Assembly (NCBI GenBank): GCA_012513225.1
Contig: JAAZCQ010000020.1
Location: forward strand, 1-64,000
DNA length: 64,000 bases
Origin: Erysipelotrichaceae bacterium
GTDB taxonomy: Bacteria; Bacillota_I; Bacilli_A; Erysipelotrichales; Erysipelotrichaceae
Direction of reading: 5' to 3'
Shown here: positions 37,979 through 47,072 of the stretch, one piece after another
Layout: the number at the start of each line of letters is the position of its first letter
Numbering within the stretch: position 1 is the first letter of the stretch
Made by a program: the position numbers and the translations under genes
Notes under the pieces: model-generated
What the model saw: only the letters and a program-made list of their open reading frames with translations
The model's database searches: none
What the model was told of the DNA's origin: nothing

Positions 37979-38024
37979 GATTATAAGAGTATTTAACTCT
38001 AAAGAATAAACAATGGAGGATAGT

Positions 38025-39584
38025 ATGATAACAAATAGCATACTTATTTCCATTTTAGTCGGTGCAATAGGTATTATGATAGGAATTATCATTATGATAA
38101 TTGCTGGTCGATTGGGTATTTCTAGTGCTAAAGCTATAGCTAAAAACACTATTGAAGAATCCAACATCAAAGCAGACAGTATTATACGTCAAGCTACATT
38201 AGATGGTAAACAGCAAGTTTACGAACTAAAACTTCAAGCAGAAAAGGAAATTAAAGAAGCAAAATCTTCTTTGCAAAACAGTGAAAACAAGTTATTGCGT
38301 AGGGAAGATACCTTAAACATGCGCGATGAAACCTTGCTGTCTAAAGAAAGACAAATTGATGAAAAAGATCGTCTAGTTACTTCAAAACTAACTAATTTGG
38401 AAAAAATGGAAGTAGAACTACAAACTCGTATTGACAATCAAATAACAGTATTAGAAAAAGCAGCTAATTTAAGTGCTTCAGAAGCAAAGGCTGAATTAAT
38501 GGAAGCTGTTGAAAAGAAATCAGAAAAAGATATTGCGATTTATTTACGAGATCAAGAAGATGAAGCAAAAGCTAAAGCTGCAGAAAAAGCGCGTAATATA
38601 ATAGCTCTTGCAATTCAAAGATATTCACAAGAAGAAACAATTGAAAGAACAGTTTCAGTAGTCGCTTTACCAAGTGAGGATATGAAGGGTAGAATCATTG
38701 GTAGAGAAGGTAGAAATATTCACGCGATTGAACAAATTACAGGGGTAGATTTAATTATTGATGATACACCTGATATTATCACTGTAAGTTGTTTTGACCC
38801 TATTAGAAGGGAAATCGCAAGATTATCATTAGAAACATTAATGAGAGATGGAAGAATTCAACCTGGAAGAATTGAAGAAGTTGTAGAAAAAGTAACAAAA
38901 GATATGGATGAAAACATCATGAAAATTGGTGATGAAGCTGTATTTAAACTAGGTATTGGTAAAATTGATAGAGAAATCATTAAACTAATTGGTAGACTTA
39001 GATTTCGTTATTCTTATGGACAAAATGCTCTTCAACATTCTATGGAAGTTGCAACATTTGCAGGTATTATGGCTGCAGAACTTGGACTAAATCAAACACT
39101 TGCAAAAAGAGCAGGTTTACTACACGATATTGGTAAAGCTCTTGATTTTGAACAAGAAGGCACTCATATTGAACTAGGTGCAAAAATCGCAAAAAAATAT
39201 AAAGAACATCCAGTTGTTATTAATGCAATTGAATCTCATCATGGAGAAGTACCAGCAACAGGTATTATTGCTCAACTTGTAGAAGCAGCAGACACACTAA
39301 GTGCTGCAAGACCTGGTGCAAGATATGAATCTATGGAGGGCTATATTAATAGACTTGAACAACTTGAAACTATCGCGAATAGCTTTGATGGTGTTGAAAG
39401 ATCTTATGCAATTCAAGCTGGTAGAGAAGTAAGAATTATGATACAACCAGAAAAAGTTAATGATATTGGCATGATTAAAATTGCCCAAGATATTAGAGAA
39501 AAGATTGAAAACGAAATGACTTATCCTGGTCAAATTAAAGTAACTTTAATTCGAGAAACAAGGGTAAATGAGTTAGCTAAGTAA
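38025..39584 (+). CDS. rny: Ribonuclease Y
   Basis: 519 residues from ATG 38025; GGAGG just upstream rules out the earlier ATG (38013). One N-terminal membrane helix, a long coiled coil (about 30-200), KH domain (KGRIIGREGRNIHAIEQITG) and HD domain (HDIGKALD). The membrane-bound endonuclease starts mRNA decay in Firmicutes and would pair with RNase J. ymdB follows with a one-base overlap. Confidence 0.95.
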   Translation: MITNSILISILVGAIGIMIGIIIMIIAGRLGISSAKAIAKNTIEESNIKADSIIRQATLDGKQQVYELKLQAEKEIKEAKSSLQNSENKLLRREDTLNMRDETLLSKERQIDEKDRLVTSKLTNLEKMEVELQTRIDNQITVLEKAANLSASEAKAELMEAVEKKSEKDIAIYLRDQEDEAKAKAAEKARNIIALAIQRYSQEETIERTVSVVALPSEDMKGRIIGREGRNIHAIEQITGVDLIIDDTPDIITVSCFDPIRREIARLSLETLMRDGRIQPGRIEEVVEKVTKDMDENIMKIGDEAVFKLGIGKIDREIIKLIGRLRFRYSYGQNALQHSMEVATFAGIMAAELGLNQTLAKRAGLLHDIGKALDFEQEGTHIELGAKIAKKYKEHPVVINAIESHHGEVPATGIIAQLVEAADTLSAARPGARYESMEGYINRLEQLETIANSFDGVERSYAIQAGREVRIMIQPEKVNDIGMIKIAQDIREKIENEMTYPGQIKVTLIRETRVNELAK

Positions 39585-40444: not shown

Positions 40445-41230
40445 ATGACTCAAGCGTTAATTATGGCAACTTTAGGTACTTTGTTTACTTTTTTTATGAC
40501 TTCAGCAGGAGCTGCAACAGTATATTTTTTTAAACGTGAACCAAGTGAAAATATTACAAGAGTATTTTTAGGATTTGCAGCAGGAGTAATGATAGCCGCA
40601 TCAGTCTGGAGTTTATTAATTCCAGCTATTGATATGACTGAAGAAGCACAAAGAATTGGCTGGATACCTGCAGCAGGTGGATTTTTAATAGGAGTATTTT
40701 TTTTATTAATACTTGATAGTTTGATACCACATTTACATCCAGATTCTAATGAGACTGAAGGTATAGAAACTAATTGGAAAAGATCAACATTATTAGTAAC
40801 TGCAGTTACATTGCATAATATTCCAGAAGGAATGGCAGTTGGATTGGCATTTGCTTTAGGAGTTCAAAATGGAGGGGAATATGCACCTGCAATTGCTTTA
40901 GCACTAGGAATGGGAATACAAAACTTTCCAGAAGGAGCAGCAATTTCACTACCTTTAAAGCATGAAGGGAAAACTTCAACACAAGCTTTTATTATTGGAA
41001 GTCTTTCTGGTATAGTTGAGCCAATATTTGGGATTGCGGTTGTTTTAATAGCTCAGTACATTACTCCATTAATGCCATGGCTATTAAGCTTTGCAGCAGG
41101 CGCGATGATATATGTAACAGTAGAAGAGCTGATTCCAGAAGCACATTTAGGTGAACACTCTCACTTTGGTACTCTTGGTGTTATTTTTGGATTTATAATT
41201 ATGATGATATTAGATGTGGCACTTGGATAA
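40445..41230 (+). CDS. ZIP-family divalent metal transporter (GufA/ZupT-like)
   Basis: 261 residues, eight membrane helices. HNIPEGMAVGLAF and QNFPEGAAISLPL are the paired metal-binding helices of ZIP proteins. A short acid/His loop (HLHPDSNETEG) lies in the middle. It imports zinc, iron or manganese; which one is not visible. AGGTG before the start. No metal-responsive operator recognised. Confidence 0.9.
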   Translation: MTQALIMATLGTLFTFFMTSAGAATVYFFKREPSENITRVFLGFAAGVMIAASVWSLLIPAIDMTEEAQRIGWIPAAGGFLIGVFFLLILDSLIPHLHPDSNETEGIETNWKRSTLLVTAVTLHNIPEGMAVGLAFALGVQNGGEYAPAIALALGMGIQNFPEGAAISLPLKHEGKTSTQAFIIGSLSGIVEPIFGIAVVLIAQYITPLMPWLLSFAAGAMIYVTVEELIPEAHLGEHSHFGTLGVIFGFIIMMILDVALG

Positions 41231-41581: not shown

Positions 41582-43018
41582 ATGAGTAATATTAATATAA
41601 AATTACCTTCTTTGAAGGATGCTAAGAAAAGAACAAAAACACCAATAACTATTCATAGAGATTCTTATGATATTAGTGAAAGTTTAAAAAACTTGGGTGT
41701 TAACAGAAAATATTATTTAAGGACTTATGGTTGTCAAGCTAATGAAAGAGATAGTGAAACTATTTCTGGAATATTAAATGAAATGAATTTTATTAAAACG
41801 GATAATTATGAAGATGCTGATCTTTTGATATTTAATACTTGTGCAATACGTGCAAATGCTGAAAATAAAGTTTTTGGTGAGATAGGGCAATTAAAAAGAT
41901 TGAAAGTTAAAAACCCTGATTTAATATTTGCAGTTTGTGGTTGTATGGTTCAAGAGGAAGTAGTTGTTGAAAAGATTATGAAGACTTATGATCAAATTGA
42001 TCTTGTCTTTGGTACACATAATATTCATAGATTACCATTACTTCTTCAAAACACAATGCTTTCTAAAGAAAGAACAATAGAAGTTTTTTCTAAAGAAGGG
42101 GAAGTAATAGAAAATCTTCCTGTAAATAGGTTTAATGATTACAAGGCTTGGGTAAATATCATGTATGGTTGTGATAAGTTTTGTACATATTGTATAGTTC
42201 CTTATACTAGAGGAAAACAAAGATCAAGATTAATACAAGATATAATTGAAGAAGTTAATGAATTAAAAGAAAAAGGTTATAAAGAAATAACACTTTTAGG
42301 CCAAAATGTTAATGCGTATGGAAAAGATTTAGATATGGAAGATGGATTTGCTCTACTTTTAGAAGAAGTTGCAAAAACAAAAATTGACAGAATAAGATTT
42401 GCAACTAGCCATCCTAGAGATTTCAGTATTAAAATGATTGAAGTTATGAAAGATAATAAAAATATTATGCCCTTTCTTCATTTACCTGTTCAATCAGGGA
42501 ATAATGAAATCCTTAAGCTTATGGGAAGAGGTTATACAGTAGAACATTTTAAAATGCTTTATGATAAACTAAAGGAATCTATTCCTAATATAGCTTTTAG
42601 CACTGATATGATTGTTGGATTTCCAAATGAAACTAGAGAACAATTTGAAGATACATTAAAACTTGTAGATTATTGTAAATTTGATTTTGCATTTCTTTTT
42701 ATTTATAGTCCAAGGGTGGGTACTCCAGCAGCGAAAATGGAGGATAACATTGATGAAAGTGAGAAAAGCAAACGACTTAAAGAGTTAAATGAAAGAGTTG
42801 CAAAGTATGGAAATATAAATAATCAAAAGTATTTAAATAAAATAGTAAAAGTGTTAGTGGATGGTAAAAGTAAGAAGAATGATCAAGTATATAGTGGATA
42901 TAGTGAAGAAAATAAGCTTATAAACTTTACAGGTACAAATATAAATGAAGGTGATATTGTCGATGTTTATATAACAGAAATTAGAAGTTGGTCAATGAAT
43001 GGTAAAAAGGTAAATTAA
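41582..43018 (+). CDS. miaB: tRNA-2-methylthio-N6-dimethylallyladenosine synthase
   Basis: 478 residues. N-terminal UPF0004 domain with three Cys (TYGCQANERDSE, FNTCAIRANAENKVFG, CGCMVQEE), radical SAM motif YGCDKFCTYCIVPYTRG, and C-terminal TRAM domain. It adds the methylthio group at A37 of tRNAs reading UNN codons. Needs two [4Fe-4S] clusters; the ferredoxin gene lies just upstream. GGAGA gives the start. Confidence 0.94.
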   Translation: MSNINIKLPSLKDAKKRTKTPITIHRDSYDISESLKNLGVNRKYYLRTYGCQANERDSETISGILNEMNFIKTDNYEDADLLIFNTCAIRANAENKVFGEIGQLKRLKVKNPDLIFAVCGCMVQEEVVVEKIMKTYDQIDLVFGTHNIHRLPLLLQNTMLSKERTIEVFSKEGEVIENLPVNRFNDYKAWVNIMYGCDKFCTYCIVPYTRGKQRSRLIQDIIEEVNELKEKGYKEITLLGQNVNAYGKDLDMEDGFALLLEEVAKTKIDRIRFATSHPRDFSIKMIEVMKDNKNIMPFLHLPVQSGNNEILKLMGRGYTVEHFKMLYDKLKESIPNIAFSTDMIVGFPNETREQFEDTLKLVDYCKFDFAFLFIYSPRVGTPAAKMEDNIDESEKSKRLKELNERVAKYGNINNQKYLNKIVKVLVDGKSKKNDQVYSGYSEENKLINFTGTNINEGDIVDVYITEIRSWSMNGKKVN

Positions 43019-43083: not shown

Positions 43084-44748
43084 ATGGATAATATTAAAGT
43101 CTTTGCCTTGGGTGGTTTAGATGAAGATGGAAAGAATATGTATGTCGTTGAGATTAACGATAAAATTTTTGTGCTAGAATGTGGACTGAAATATCCTGAA
43201 ACAGATCAATTAGGAATTGAAATGATAATTCCCGATTTTAAATATTTAATAGAAAATAAAAATAGAGTTAAAGGTGTTTTTATAAGCCATGGTAATGATG
43301 ATGTTATGGCTGCGATTGTAAATTTAGTTAAAGAGATTAATGTTCCAATTTACACTGCACCTTTGACTGCATATATAATCGAAGATAAATTTAAAAAAGC
43401 TGGTATAAAAAAATATAATTTACATAGAATTCAAAGAAATTCAAAATTTAAAATAGATGGTATAGAAATTAGAACTTTTGGTGTTACTGAATCTATTGCT
43501 GATGCTATGGGTGTTGCTATTAAAACAGATAAGGGATTTATAGTTTATAGTAGTGAGTTTATATTTGATTTTGATGTAAAAATTGAAGCATTTAAATGTG
43601 ATATTACAAATTTAGCTAATATAGGACAAGAGGGAGTATTACTATTAATGACAGAATCAGTTGCATCAACAAGAGAAGGTCATAGTGCTCCTAAACATAA
43701 ATTAACACCTATAATAGAATCATATTTTGAAGAAACAAAAGATAGAATTTGTATTACTATGTATAATCAAAATCTATTTAGAATTATTGAAGTTATAGAA
43801 CTTGCAAATAAATATAATAGAAAAATAATGTTTTATGATGATGAATTAAGAAGTTTTATGAAAGAAGTTGAAAAACTAGGTTATTATCATGTTCCAGCAG
43901 GGTTAGAAATAGTAAAAAGTAAATTTAGAAATGAAATGGAAAATGTTGTAGTTATAATTTCTGGTGCAGGATCAAATATATTTAAAAAAGTTCAAACTAT
44001 CTCTACTAAAGAAGATCCACTTCTTGAATTTAGACCATCAGATACAATTATTATTGCATCTCCATCAGTTCCTGGAACTGAAAGAGAAGCAAATAGGATG
44101 GAAAATGGTTTATATAAAGAAGGTGCAAAAGTATATGCAACTGATAAAAAAAGAATGTTTTCCATGCACGCTGCAATTGAAGATTTAAAAATGATGATTT
44201 ATTTATTTAAACCAAAATACTATATGCCTGTAAAAGGGGAATATAGACAGTTAATATCTAATGCTAACATAGCTTTGGATATGGGCTATCAAGCAGATAA
44301 AATAATTGTGATGGATAATGGACAAGTTGCAACTTTAAAAAATGGTGAACTTGAGAAAACATACGGTAAAATAGAAGTTGAAGACGTACTTGTTGATGGT
44401 AAGGCATCTTTAGATGCTAGTGGAATGGTATTAAGAGATAGAGAGACACTTTCAACTGATGGCGCAATTATTGTTGGCGTTGTAATTAATCATTCAACAA
44501 AGAAAATTATTGGTGGACCAGATGTTCAAAGTAGGGGTGTAATATATTTAAAAGATGCAGATCATATTGTCAAAGAAATTGGAAATATTATGGAAAAAAT
44601 AATTACTGATGCAGTAAAAAATAAAAAATATGATAATATGGGATGCCGTATGGAAGCAAGGGAAGTAATTGGAAAATATGTTTTAAAACAAACAGGGAAA
44701 CACCCAATGATACTACCTGCAATAGTAGAAATTAATTCAGCTGAATAG
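43084..44748 (+). CDS. RNase J family protein with a ruined metal site (RNase J2 position)
   Basis: 554 residues from ATG 43084 (GGAGGA 8 bases upstream). Architecture is that of RNase J: metallo-beta-lactamase halves, beta-CASP domain and C-terminal domain with SRGVIYLKDAD. The metal ligands are mostly gone: the HxHxDH motif reads HGNDDV (His69 and Asp73 remain), the next His (HSIPD) is Glu136, the metal Asp (GDFKFD) is Glu158, and the late PVHGEYR His is Lys384. STNAE-type motif is also lost (ESVASTREG). Position just before ftsK equals that of rnjB in Bacillus, whose product is the weakly active partner of J1. It is probably a non-catalytic partner of an RNase J1 encoded elsewhere. Confidence 0.88.
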   Translation: MDNIKVFALGGLDEDGKNMYVVEINDKIFVLECGLKYPETDQLGIEMIIPDFKYLIENKNRVKGVFISHGNDDVMAAIVNLVKEINVPIYTAPLTAYIIEDKFKKAGIKKYNLHRIQRNSKFKIDGIEIRTFGVTESIADAMGVAIKTDKGFIVYSSEFIFDFDVKIEAFKCDITNLANIGQEGVLLLMTESVASTREGHSAPKHKLTPIIESYFEETKDRICITMYNQNLFRIIEVIELANKYNRKIMFYDDELRSFMKEVEKLGYYHVPAGLEIVKSKFRNEMENVVVIISGAGSNIFKKVQTISTKEDPLLEFRPSDTIIIASPSVPGTEREANRMENGLYKEGAKVYATDKKRMFSMHAAIEDLKMMIYLFKPKYYMPVKGEYRQLISNANIALDMGYQADKIIVMDNGQVATLKNGELEKTYGKIEVEDVLVDGKASLDASGMVLRDRETLSTDGAIIVGVVINHSTKKIIGGPDVQSRGVIYLKDADHIVKEIGNIMEKIITDAVKNKKYDNMGCRMEAREVIGKYVLKQTGKHPMILPAIVEINSAE

Positions 44749-44759
44749 GGGATAATACA

Positions 44760-47072
44760 TTGGCAAAAAAAGCAGTTAAAAAAACAAAAAAAGAAATAAA
44801 AAAAGAACAAGAATTATATATGTATGTGTTTGCAGTAATACTAATTGCAATTAGTATTATTGCATACTCAAGACAGGGAGTTCTTGGGATTTTCCTTTCC
44901 AACTTAGCTAACTTTTTATTTGGTAGATATTCTGTAATTGTGTTAGTAGTTTTTGTGAGTTTATCAGTACTAATATTAATAAGTAGAAAAAAGAAATTTG
45001 TCACAAAGAGAACAATAGTTGCAATAATATTGTTGCTTTTTGCATTATTTTTATATTCAGCTTTAGATAGTATTACTGATGAAGTTGGTTTAGAAATAGT
45101 TAACAGTTATTTAGAAAGTACTCCAAAATATTTTGAGAACACTGTTTTAATACAGTCCTATGGTGGATTAGTTGGAGCTTTGTTATTATCACTAACTACT
45201 GTTCTAGTTGCGAAAACAGGAACTTATATTGTTATTGTAGCGCTAGTTATAATTGCTTCTTTATTATTAATATCTTTAGATTCTTATAAACAAGCTTTTG
45301 AGTCCTTAAAGAAGTTTTTTACATTACCTGAGAAATTAATGAATGCAGGTTATGAAGAAGAATATTATGAGGATGATGAATATGAAAAATATGAGGAAAT
45401 AATAGAAGAAAAACAAAGTGTAGAACAAATTAAGTATGCTGGTGCATTGGATAATGATTATACAATACAAAATGAAAATACAAATAAATCTATATTTTTA
45501 ACGCTAGATCCAGAACCTACAGTGGATACAGTAGATAGTGAAAGCTTAAGTATTAAAAACGAAAAATTAAGTCAAAATAATACAAGCATTGTTGATTCAA
45601 CAAAGACAGTTGCTGCTAGTAAACCCACTACTACTAGTCCTTATAAAATACCTTCTTATGATATTTTAGATCCAATTGGTGTTAGAACAAGAAACACAGT
45701 AAATCAAAGTGCTGCAAAAGATAAAGCTAAAAAATTATTAGATATTTTAAGAAATTTTGGCATAGAAGCAACCTTAATTGGAACTCATATTGGTCCATCC
45801 GTAACAAAATTTGAAATAAAACCAGAATCTAATGTAAAAGTTTCTAAAATTATTAGTATACAAGATAATATTAAAATGGAATTAGCAGCAAGAGACATAA
45901 GGATTGAAGCACCAATTCCAGGTAGAAATGCCGTTGGAATAGAAATTCCAAATGTTGAATCTACTCCTGTTAAGATGAAGGAAATAATTCTTCAAATTCC
46001 ACATGATAAAAAGAATAAGCCTTTACTATTAGCTTTAGGTAAAGACCTACTTGGAAAACCAGTATTTTGTCAACTTGATAAAATGCCGCATTTACTTATT
46101 GCTGGAGCAACTGGGTCAGGTAAGTCTGTTTGTATGAATTCCATTATTACTTCATTATTATTAAGAACTTCTCCAGATGATGTTAAGTTATTATTAATTG
46201 ATCCTAAAAAAGTTGAGTTTACACAGTATGCAAATATTCCTCATTTAATAGGACCTGTTATTAGTGATTCAAATCATGCTAGTAATGCTTTAAAAGTTAT
46301 AGTTCAGATAATGGAAGAGAGATATGAAGTGTTTTCTGCTGCACAAGTAAGAAATATACAAGTTTATAATGAAAAAGTTAAACAAGATCCAACTGATGCT
46401 TTATTAAAGCCAATGCCATACATTGTTGTAATAATTGACGAATTAGCTGATTTAATGGCTGTTGCTGGTAAAGAGGTTGAACTAAGTATTCAAAGAATTA
46501 CACAGTTAGCTAGAGCAGCAGGCATTCACTTAATTGTAGCTACACAAAGACCAAGTACTGATGTAATTACAGGTATAATAAAAGCGAATATTCCAAGTAG
46601 GATTGCTTTTAGCGTTTCTAGTGGAATTGATAGTAGAACAATTCTAGATCATGTTGGAGCAGAACGCTTGCTTGGTTATGGAGATATGTTATATTTACCT
46701 ATAGGAGAGCCTAGTTCTATAAGACTTCAAGGTGTATATGTAACTGATGAAGAAGTTGTAAGGATTGCAGATTTTTGTGCAAGTCAAAGAGCTCCTATGT
46801 ATGATGATGCCTTTATAAGATTAGAAGGTGTTGACGGAAATGAAGGTACTGCAGTTATAAGTGCAAATGAAGATCCTTTATATCAAGAAGTAAAAGATTA
46901 TGTTATTGAGGTTCAAAAAGCTTCTACATCACTATTACAAAGACGCTTTGGAATAGGATATAATAGAGCTGCAAGGATGATAGATATACTTGAAAATAAC
47001 GGAATTATAGGACCGGTTCAAGGTTCAAAACCAAGAGATGTTTATGTTAAGAAGGAGGAAGAATTATCATGA
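44760..47072 (+). CDS. ftsK: DNA translocase FtsK/SpoIIIE
   Basis: 770 residues, TTG start 11 bases after the RNase J stop with AGGGG before it. A basic N-terminus and four membrane helices (about 15-175), a short acidic linker (EEEYYEDDEYEKYEE), the motor with Walker A GATGSGKS and Walker B VVIIDELADLM, and the C-terminal gamma winged helix (LLQRRFGIGYNRAARMIDILE). It pumps chromosome ends through the septum. Its TGA overlaps the ATG of yjjI (ATGA). Confidence 0.95.
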   Translation: MAKKAVKKTKKEIKKEQELYMYVFAVILIAISIIAYSRQGVLGIFLSNLANFLFGRYSVIVLVVFVSLSVLILISRKKKFVTKRTIVAIILLLFALFLYSALDSITDEVGLEIVNSYLESTPKYFENTVLIQSYGGLVGALLLSLTTVLVAKTGTYIVIVALVIIASLLLISLDSYKQAFESLKKFFTLPEKLMNAGYEEEYYEDDEYEKYEEIIEEKQSVEQIKYAGALDNDYTIQNENTNKSIFLTLDPEPTVDTVDSESLSIKNEKLSQNNTSIVDSTKTVAASKPTTTSPYKIPSYDILDPIGVRTRNTVNQSAAKDKAKKLLDILRNFGIEATLIGTHIGPSVTKFEIKPESNVKVSKIISIQDNIKMELAARDIRIEAPIPGRNAVGIEIPNVESTPVKMKEIILQIPHDKKNKPLLLALGKDLLGKPVFCQLDKMPHLLIAGATGSGKSVCMNSIITSLLLRTSPDDVKLLLIDPKKVEFTQYANIPHLIGPVISDSNHASNALKVIVQIMEERYEVFSAAQVRNIQVYNEKVKQDPTDALLKPMPYIVVIIDELADLMAVAGKEVELSIQRITQLARAAGIHLIVATQRPSTDVITGIIKANIPSRIAFSVSSGIDSRTILDHVGAERLLGYGDMLYLPIGEPSSIRLQGVYVTDEEVVRIADFCASQRAPMYDDAFIRLEGVDGNEGTAVISANEDPLYQEVKDYVIEVQKASTSLLQRRFGIGYNRAARMIDILENNGIIGPVQGSKPRDVYVKKEEELS

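Follow-up and report, generated by a model that had tools for sequence, protein, structure and literature searches.

A catalytically degenerate RNase J2 in Erysipelotrichaceae, probably kept as a non-catalytic partner of RNase J1

Why is an RNase J paralogue kept when most of the residues that should bind its catalytic metals have been replaced? The question is raised by a gene in a 64,000-nucleotide stretch of contig JAAZCQ010000020.1 from a gut-type bacterium of the Erysipelotrichaceae (assembly GCA_012513225.1); the whole stretch is called the window here. The gene, rnjB (43084..44748, + strand), encodes RNase J2, a catalytically degenerate RNase J paralogue of 554 aa, as judged from the open reading frame, family models, a phylogenetic tree and synteny; it starts with the ATG at 43084, with GGAGG ahead of it, and its stop codon ends at 44748. 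Directly upstream lies miaB (41582..43018, +), a linkage kept in Erysipelotrichaceae, and 11 bp downstream lies ftsK/spoIIIE (44760..47072, +). A candidate rny gene for RNase Y (38013..39584, +), recognised by eye from its own sequence and from the adjacent ymdB, is found about 3.5 kb upstream of rnjB and is a candidate degradosome neighbour. A ZIP-type metal transporter-like gene (40445-41230) is located between ymdB and miaB.

The rnjB product belongs to the RNase J family according to TIGR00649 (426 bits against a curated cut-off of 400), but fails as a J1 under the RNase J1 model NF047419 (442 bits against a cut-off of 820). The Pfam domains b-CASP, RMMBL and RNase_J_C all score on it, giving a full-length architecture, while Lactamase_B does not score on it and does match the J1 of the same genome. 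The C-terminal RNase_J_C domain (PF17770, 87 bits) spans aa 449-550 (44428..44733, +); in RNase J1 it is the dimerisation part (PMC7864078). In a tree of 258 proteins, 51 J1s and 207 J2s fall into separate clades (support 0.996-0.999), with S. epidermidis J2 in the same clade as the window J2; all seven metal ligands are present in 51 of the 51 J1s and in none of the J2s. Moreover, ftsK follows the J2 gene not only in Erysipelotrichaceae but also in the order's second family (f2), in f6, f7, f8 and f12, and in part of f4, so that the rnjB-ftsK order is common to six families of Bacilli and part of a seventh. We take rnjB to adjoin ftsK/spoIIIE in B. subtilis as well. Given the J1/J2 split in the tree and the rnjB-ftsK synteny, the window protein is RnjB and no new paralogue.

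An intact J1 of 600 aa (HGHEDH, HSIPD, GDFKFD, PIHGEY) is encoded on another contig of the same genome, beside a peptide-deformylase-like (def-like) gene. The sequence-only reading of this locus had proposed a search for a second RNase J with intact motifs and had named the lack of any J1 as fatal to its case; with this J1 found, that objection falls. An RNase J match was obtained in 59 of 60 relatives, nearly all of which have both J1 and J2. Three near-complete drafts of relatives or class members (G016, G046 and G135) have a J2-type RNase J, and no J1 was found in them; these are probably draft gaps and, the genomes being drafts, they are not decisive against a partnership of J2 with J1, although a true absence of J1 would challenge it directly. 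In another genome of the same family (G018, 10 contigs, 98% complete), neither J1, J2 nor any RMMBL domain was found, which is unusual for Bacilli. Four f12 genomes (G078, G088, G096 and G105) carry three RNase J genes each, in G078, G096 and G105 two with intact motifs and one J2. In the window's own genome (G000), PNPase gave only weak partial matches at the model's end, none above the curated cut-off, and its absence is not established since this genome is about 80% complete.

We numbered the metal ligands after B. subtilis J1, where H74, H76, H142 and D164 bind metal 1 and D78, H79, D164 and H390 bind metal 2 (PMC7864078, PMC5383250), and wrote the state of each protein as a seven-letter string running through positions 74, 76, 78, 79, 142, 164 and 390, read against the J1 of the same genome and 50 other J1s, each of which is intact at all seven. 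The window J2 reads HNDVEEK, i.e., five of the seven ligands are replaced (H76N, H79V, H142E, D164E and H390K). Its counterpart of HxHxDH is HGNDDV (aa 69-74; 43288..43305, +), which contains H74 (H69) and D78 (D73), the sole ligands left, together with N71 in place of H76 and V74 in place of H79. HSIPD has become ESIAD (aa 136-140; 43489..43503, +), with E136 for H142; GDFKFD has become SEFIFD (aa 157-162; 43552..43569, +), with E158 for the bridging D164; and PVHGEY has become PVKGEY (aa 382-387; 44227..44244, +), with K384 for H390, a replacement nearly fixed in the order. All these substitutions are as first described from the letters of the window. Furthermore, the RNA-contacting GSQGEP motif of J1 has given way to GAGSNI (aa 294-299; 43963..43980, +), and it is lost across the Erysipelotrichaceae J2s. 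The HxSGH phosphate pocket is FxSMH-like in the window J2, with the first His lost and the Ser and second His kept; the J2s of the family retain this Ser (or Thr) and the second His.

The ligand states of related J2s are nested. HHDVHEK, with three ligands lost, is the state of f2 and of basal Erysipelotrichaceae; HHDVQEK occurs in 80 of the 110 distinct Erysipelotrichaceae J2s, Gln at 142 being the family norm; N71 is confined to the window's genus (three genomes), in two of which E136 is found. Because of this nesting, the five losses are most simply explained as stepwise. The second-metal site would have gone first, through H390 to Lys, H79 to Val or Ala and D164 to Glu, all nearly fixed order-wide; H142 would then have changed to Gln or Glu and, in the window's genus only, H76 to Asn. 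Most Erysipelotrichaceae and their f2 relatives retain H74, H76 and Glu164, and some H142 too. Hence the earlier statement that the catalytic metal site has been lost stands as far as the replacement of five of seven ligands goes, and is overstated in that these relatives keep part of the site and the window J2 itself has an acid cluster (D72, D73, E136 and E158).

Among 202 distinct J2s, a sample weighted towards Erysipelotrichaceae, one ligand is lost in 30, two in 13, three in 59, four in 90, five in 4 and six in 6. H390 alone is lost in the families with HHDHHDI. At the other end, mycoplasma-like J2s of f4, in which TGA encodes Trp (L198, L202, L205, L207 and L209), read NAYNSDK or NSNNADK, with six of seven replaced; they share with the window J2 the J2 clade, Lys390 and the loss of H76, H79 and H142, but have also lost H74 and D78 and have kept Asp164. 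We had considered the window J2 as the deepest J2 decay known, and this was refuted by the f4 genomes together with one f7 genome. The idea that decay in other J2s stops short of this is likewise wrong, since S. epidermidis J2 has lost four ligands, as has that of S. aureus, and others six. The window J2 is thus more decayed than staphylococcal J2, within a continuum, and is not the most decayed known. What is new here is the extent, the order and the fixed replacement pattern of J2 decay in Erysipelotrichales; our literature search found no paper on RNase J in Erysipelotrichaceae and none joining "RNase J2" with "pseudoenzyme".

For comparison with J2s of known behaviour we used published papers and the S. 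epidermidis J2 sequence, which also stand in for Bacillus J2. The S. aureus and S. epidermidis J2s (PDB 6k6w) resemble the window J2 in their full-length RNase J fold, the intact J1 partner gene and the replaced second-metal ligands, with D164E in both, H79A versus Val and H390Q versus Lys. However, S. epidermidis J2 (HGHEHA, Glu and Gln) has four of seven ligands lost versus five of seven, and the staphylococcal protein keeps H76, H142, GxQGEP and one Mn, while the window J2 is without those residues. In S. aureus, a J2 with HGH mutated to AGA supports wild-type growth, deletion of J2 is harmful, and a catalytically dead J1 partly substitutes for J2 (PMC3937233); a structural role, in which the protein is needed and its catalytic residues are dispensable, is therefore already known there. 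By contrast, the J2s of E. faecalis (PMC5383250) and S. mutans (PMC6759994), the same paralogue as that in the window, are reported to be active enzymes; E. faecalis J2 binds J1, its active-site mutants still do so with nanomolar affinity, and pilus regulation depends on its enzymatic activity (PMC5383250). Having lost five ligands and its RNA-contact motif, the window J2 would fall on the S. aureus side, and it is best read as serving J1 in a structural or regulatory capacity, with predicted J1 binding and inactivity. We consider it probable that RnjB is a pseudo-nuclease, or close to one, that has been retained as the non-catalytic member of a J1-J2 complex.

Less likely, though still to be taken seriously, is that the window J2 is a residual enzyme with a single, non-canonical metal, in which H69, D72/D73, E136 and E158 hold Mg, Mn or Ca, and which acts as a weak endonuclease in the manner of S. 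epidermidis J2. The latter, four of whose ligands are lost, nevertheless binds one Mn through His-76, His-78, His-80, His-144 and Glu-166 and shows weak RNA cleavage, strongest with Ca (PMC7864078). The acid cluster of the window J2 might hold a hard metal, and both the ligands kept by most relatives and the Ser and second His of the phosphate pocket are in line with such an activity. However, H76 and H142 are both gone in the window's genus, the GSQGEP motif is missing, as is the first His of the pocket, the Lactamase_B domain is unrecognised by Pfam, and K384 would occupy the metal pocket.

AlphaFold predicts an RNase J fold for the window J2 (pLDDT 88.7); the length and overall fold are kept, as claimed from the start. 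The best PDB match in a fold search is the RNJ2-RNJ1 integrative model 9a5v, followed by B. subtilis J1 (3zq4) and S. epidermidis J2 (6k6w; TM 0.91 by target). A task independent of J1, such as RNA binding or scaffolding with RNase Y or ribosomes, might be read from the faster evolution of J2 than of J1 everywhere, from 35 J2 positions fixed to a residue different from that in J1, and from the position of rnjB, which lies between miaB and ftsK in an operon and not beside rnjA; but we regard it as improbable, since J2 is nearly always found with J1, the RNA-contact motif is lost, and the fold and the C-terminal dimer domain are kept. A shift of constraint toward the C-terminal assembly domain seemed strong when 110 J2s were set against 21 J1s; the test on matched genomes gave no significant effect, a fraction of 0.23 of circular shifts being as low, and we dropped the idea.

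The window J2 is under strong purifying selection. Comparison of congeneric genomes gives dN/dS values of 0.10-0.13 for J2, at dS of about 0.9-1.2, and of 0.05-0.11 for J1. J2 orthologues occur throughout Erysipelotrichaceae (110 distinct), isolates such as Anaerorhabdus furcosa and Holdemania included, and among 115 sequences of the family E158 is present in 98%, K384 in 94%, V74 in 92% and D73 in 100%. Since the replaced residues are near-fixed in these 115 J2s, isolate genomes included, they are due neither to chance nor to sequencing error. A decaying pseudogene or assembly artefact, as the many lost catalytic residues might suggest, is refuted by the intact reading frame with its ribosome-binding site, the dN/dS of about 0.1, the orthologues in isolates and the fixed replacements. 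The selection and the order-wide orthologues bear out the proposal that a candidate pseudo-nuclease is maintained in the place of J2.

As a non-catalytic subunit, J2 would leave both 5'-3' exonucleolysis and endonucleolysis to J1, whose gene lies elsewhere in the genome and whose active site is perfect. J2 would complete the dimer or tetramer as its second half, stabilise J1 and shape the RNA entry path, and perhaps tether the J1-J2 complex to RNase Y. In the pocket itself, the ammonium group of the lysine probably fills the place of metal 2 against Asp73 and Glu158. The covariation among the 202 J2s, of which only four retain H390, suggests that lysine has replaced this metal: Asp or Glu is present at 164 in all 149 J2s with Lys or Arg at 390, and H79 in one of these 149, while of the 39 J2s that keep H79, 38 have a residue other than Lys or Arg at 390, mostly Ile. 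Within the lysine branch, loss of the acid at 164 goes with loss of the lysine (HHDMHQM in f1 and HHENHNM in f11). This pattern is suggestive and not statistically proven, as most of it stems from few events in the tree, namely one main branch (support 1.0) and f5. Tentatively, and with somewhat more doubt than conviction, we propose that in a large branch of Bacilli, comprising Erysipelotrichales and several further families, a buried lysine in a salt bridge with Asp or Glu may have taken over from the second catalytic metal of J2, and J2, once a nuclease, may have become an obligate allosteric subunit of J1 with no metal or with one. Bacteria would then have their own counterpart, separate in origin, of the pseudo-nuclease pairs INTS9/INTS11 and CPSF100/CPSF73, in which inactive and active MBL/beta-CASP proteins are joined via C-terminal domains (PMC7980224). 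These pairs are the nearest parallel beyond bacteria. As predicted for the window J2, INTS9 and CPSF100 are inactive paralogues beside an active one; unlike the window J2, they are eukaryotic and have extra domains, so that the analogy is one of working and not of membership.

Whether J2 matters for its catalysis or for its partnership with J1 is disputed between staphylococci, where the site is dispensable, and enterococci and streptococci, where it is needed. The graded series of J2s, with one to six ligands lost, offers ready-made test proteins. The J2s of Erysipelotrichales, in which the site appears to have been dismantled stepwise while the protein stayed under strong selection, amount to a natural experiment on this dispute; if they still support J1, the non-catalytic role would be the common one.
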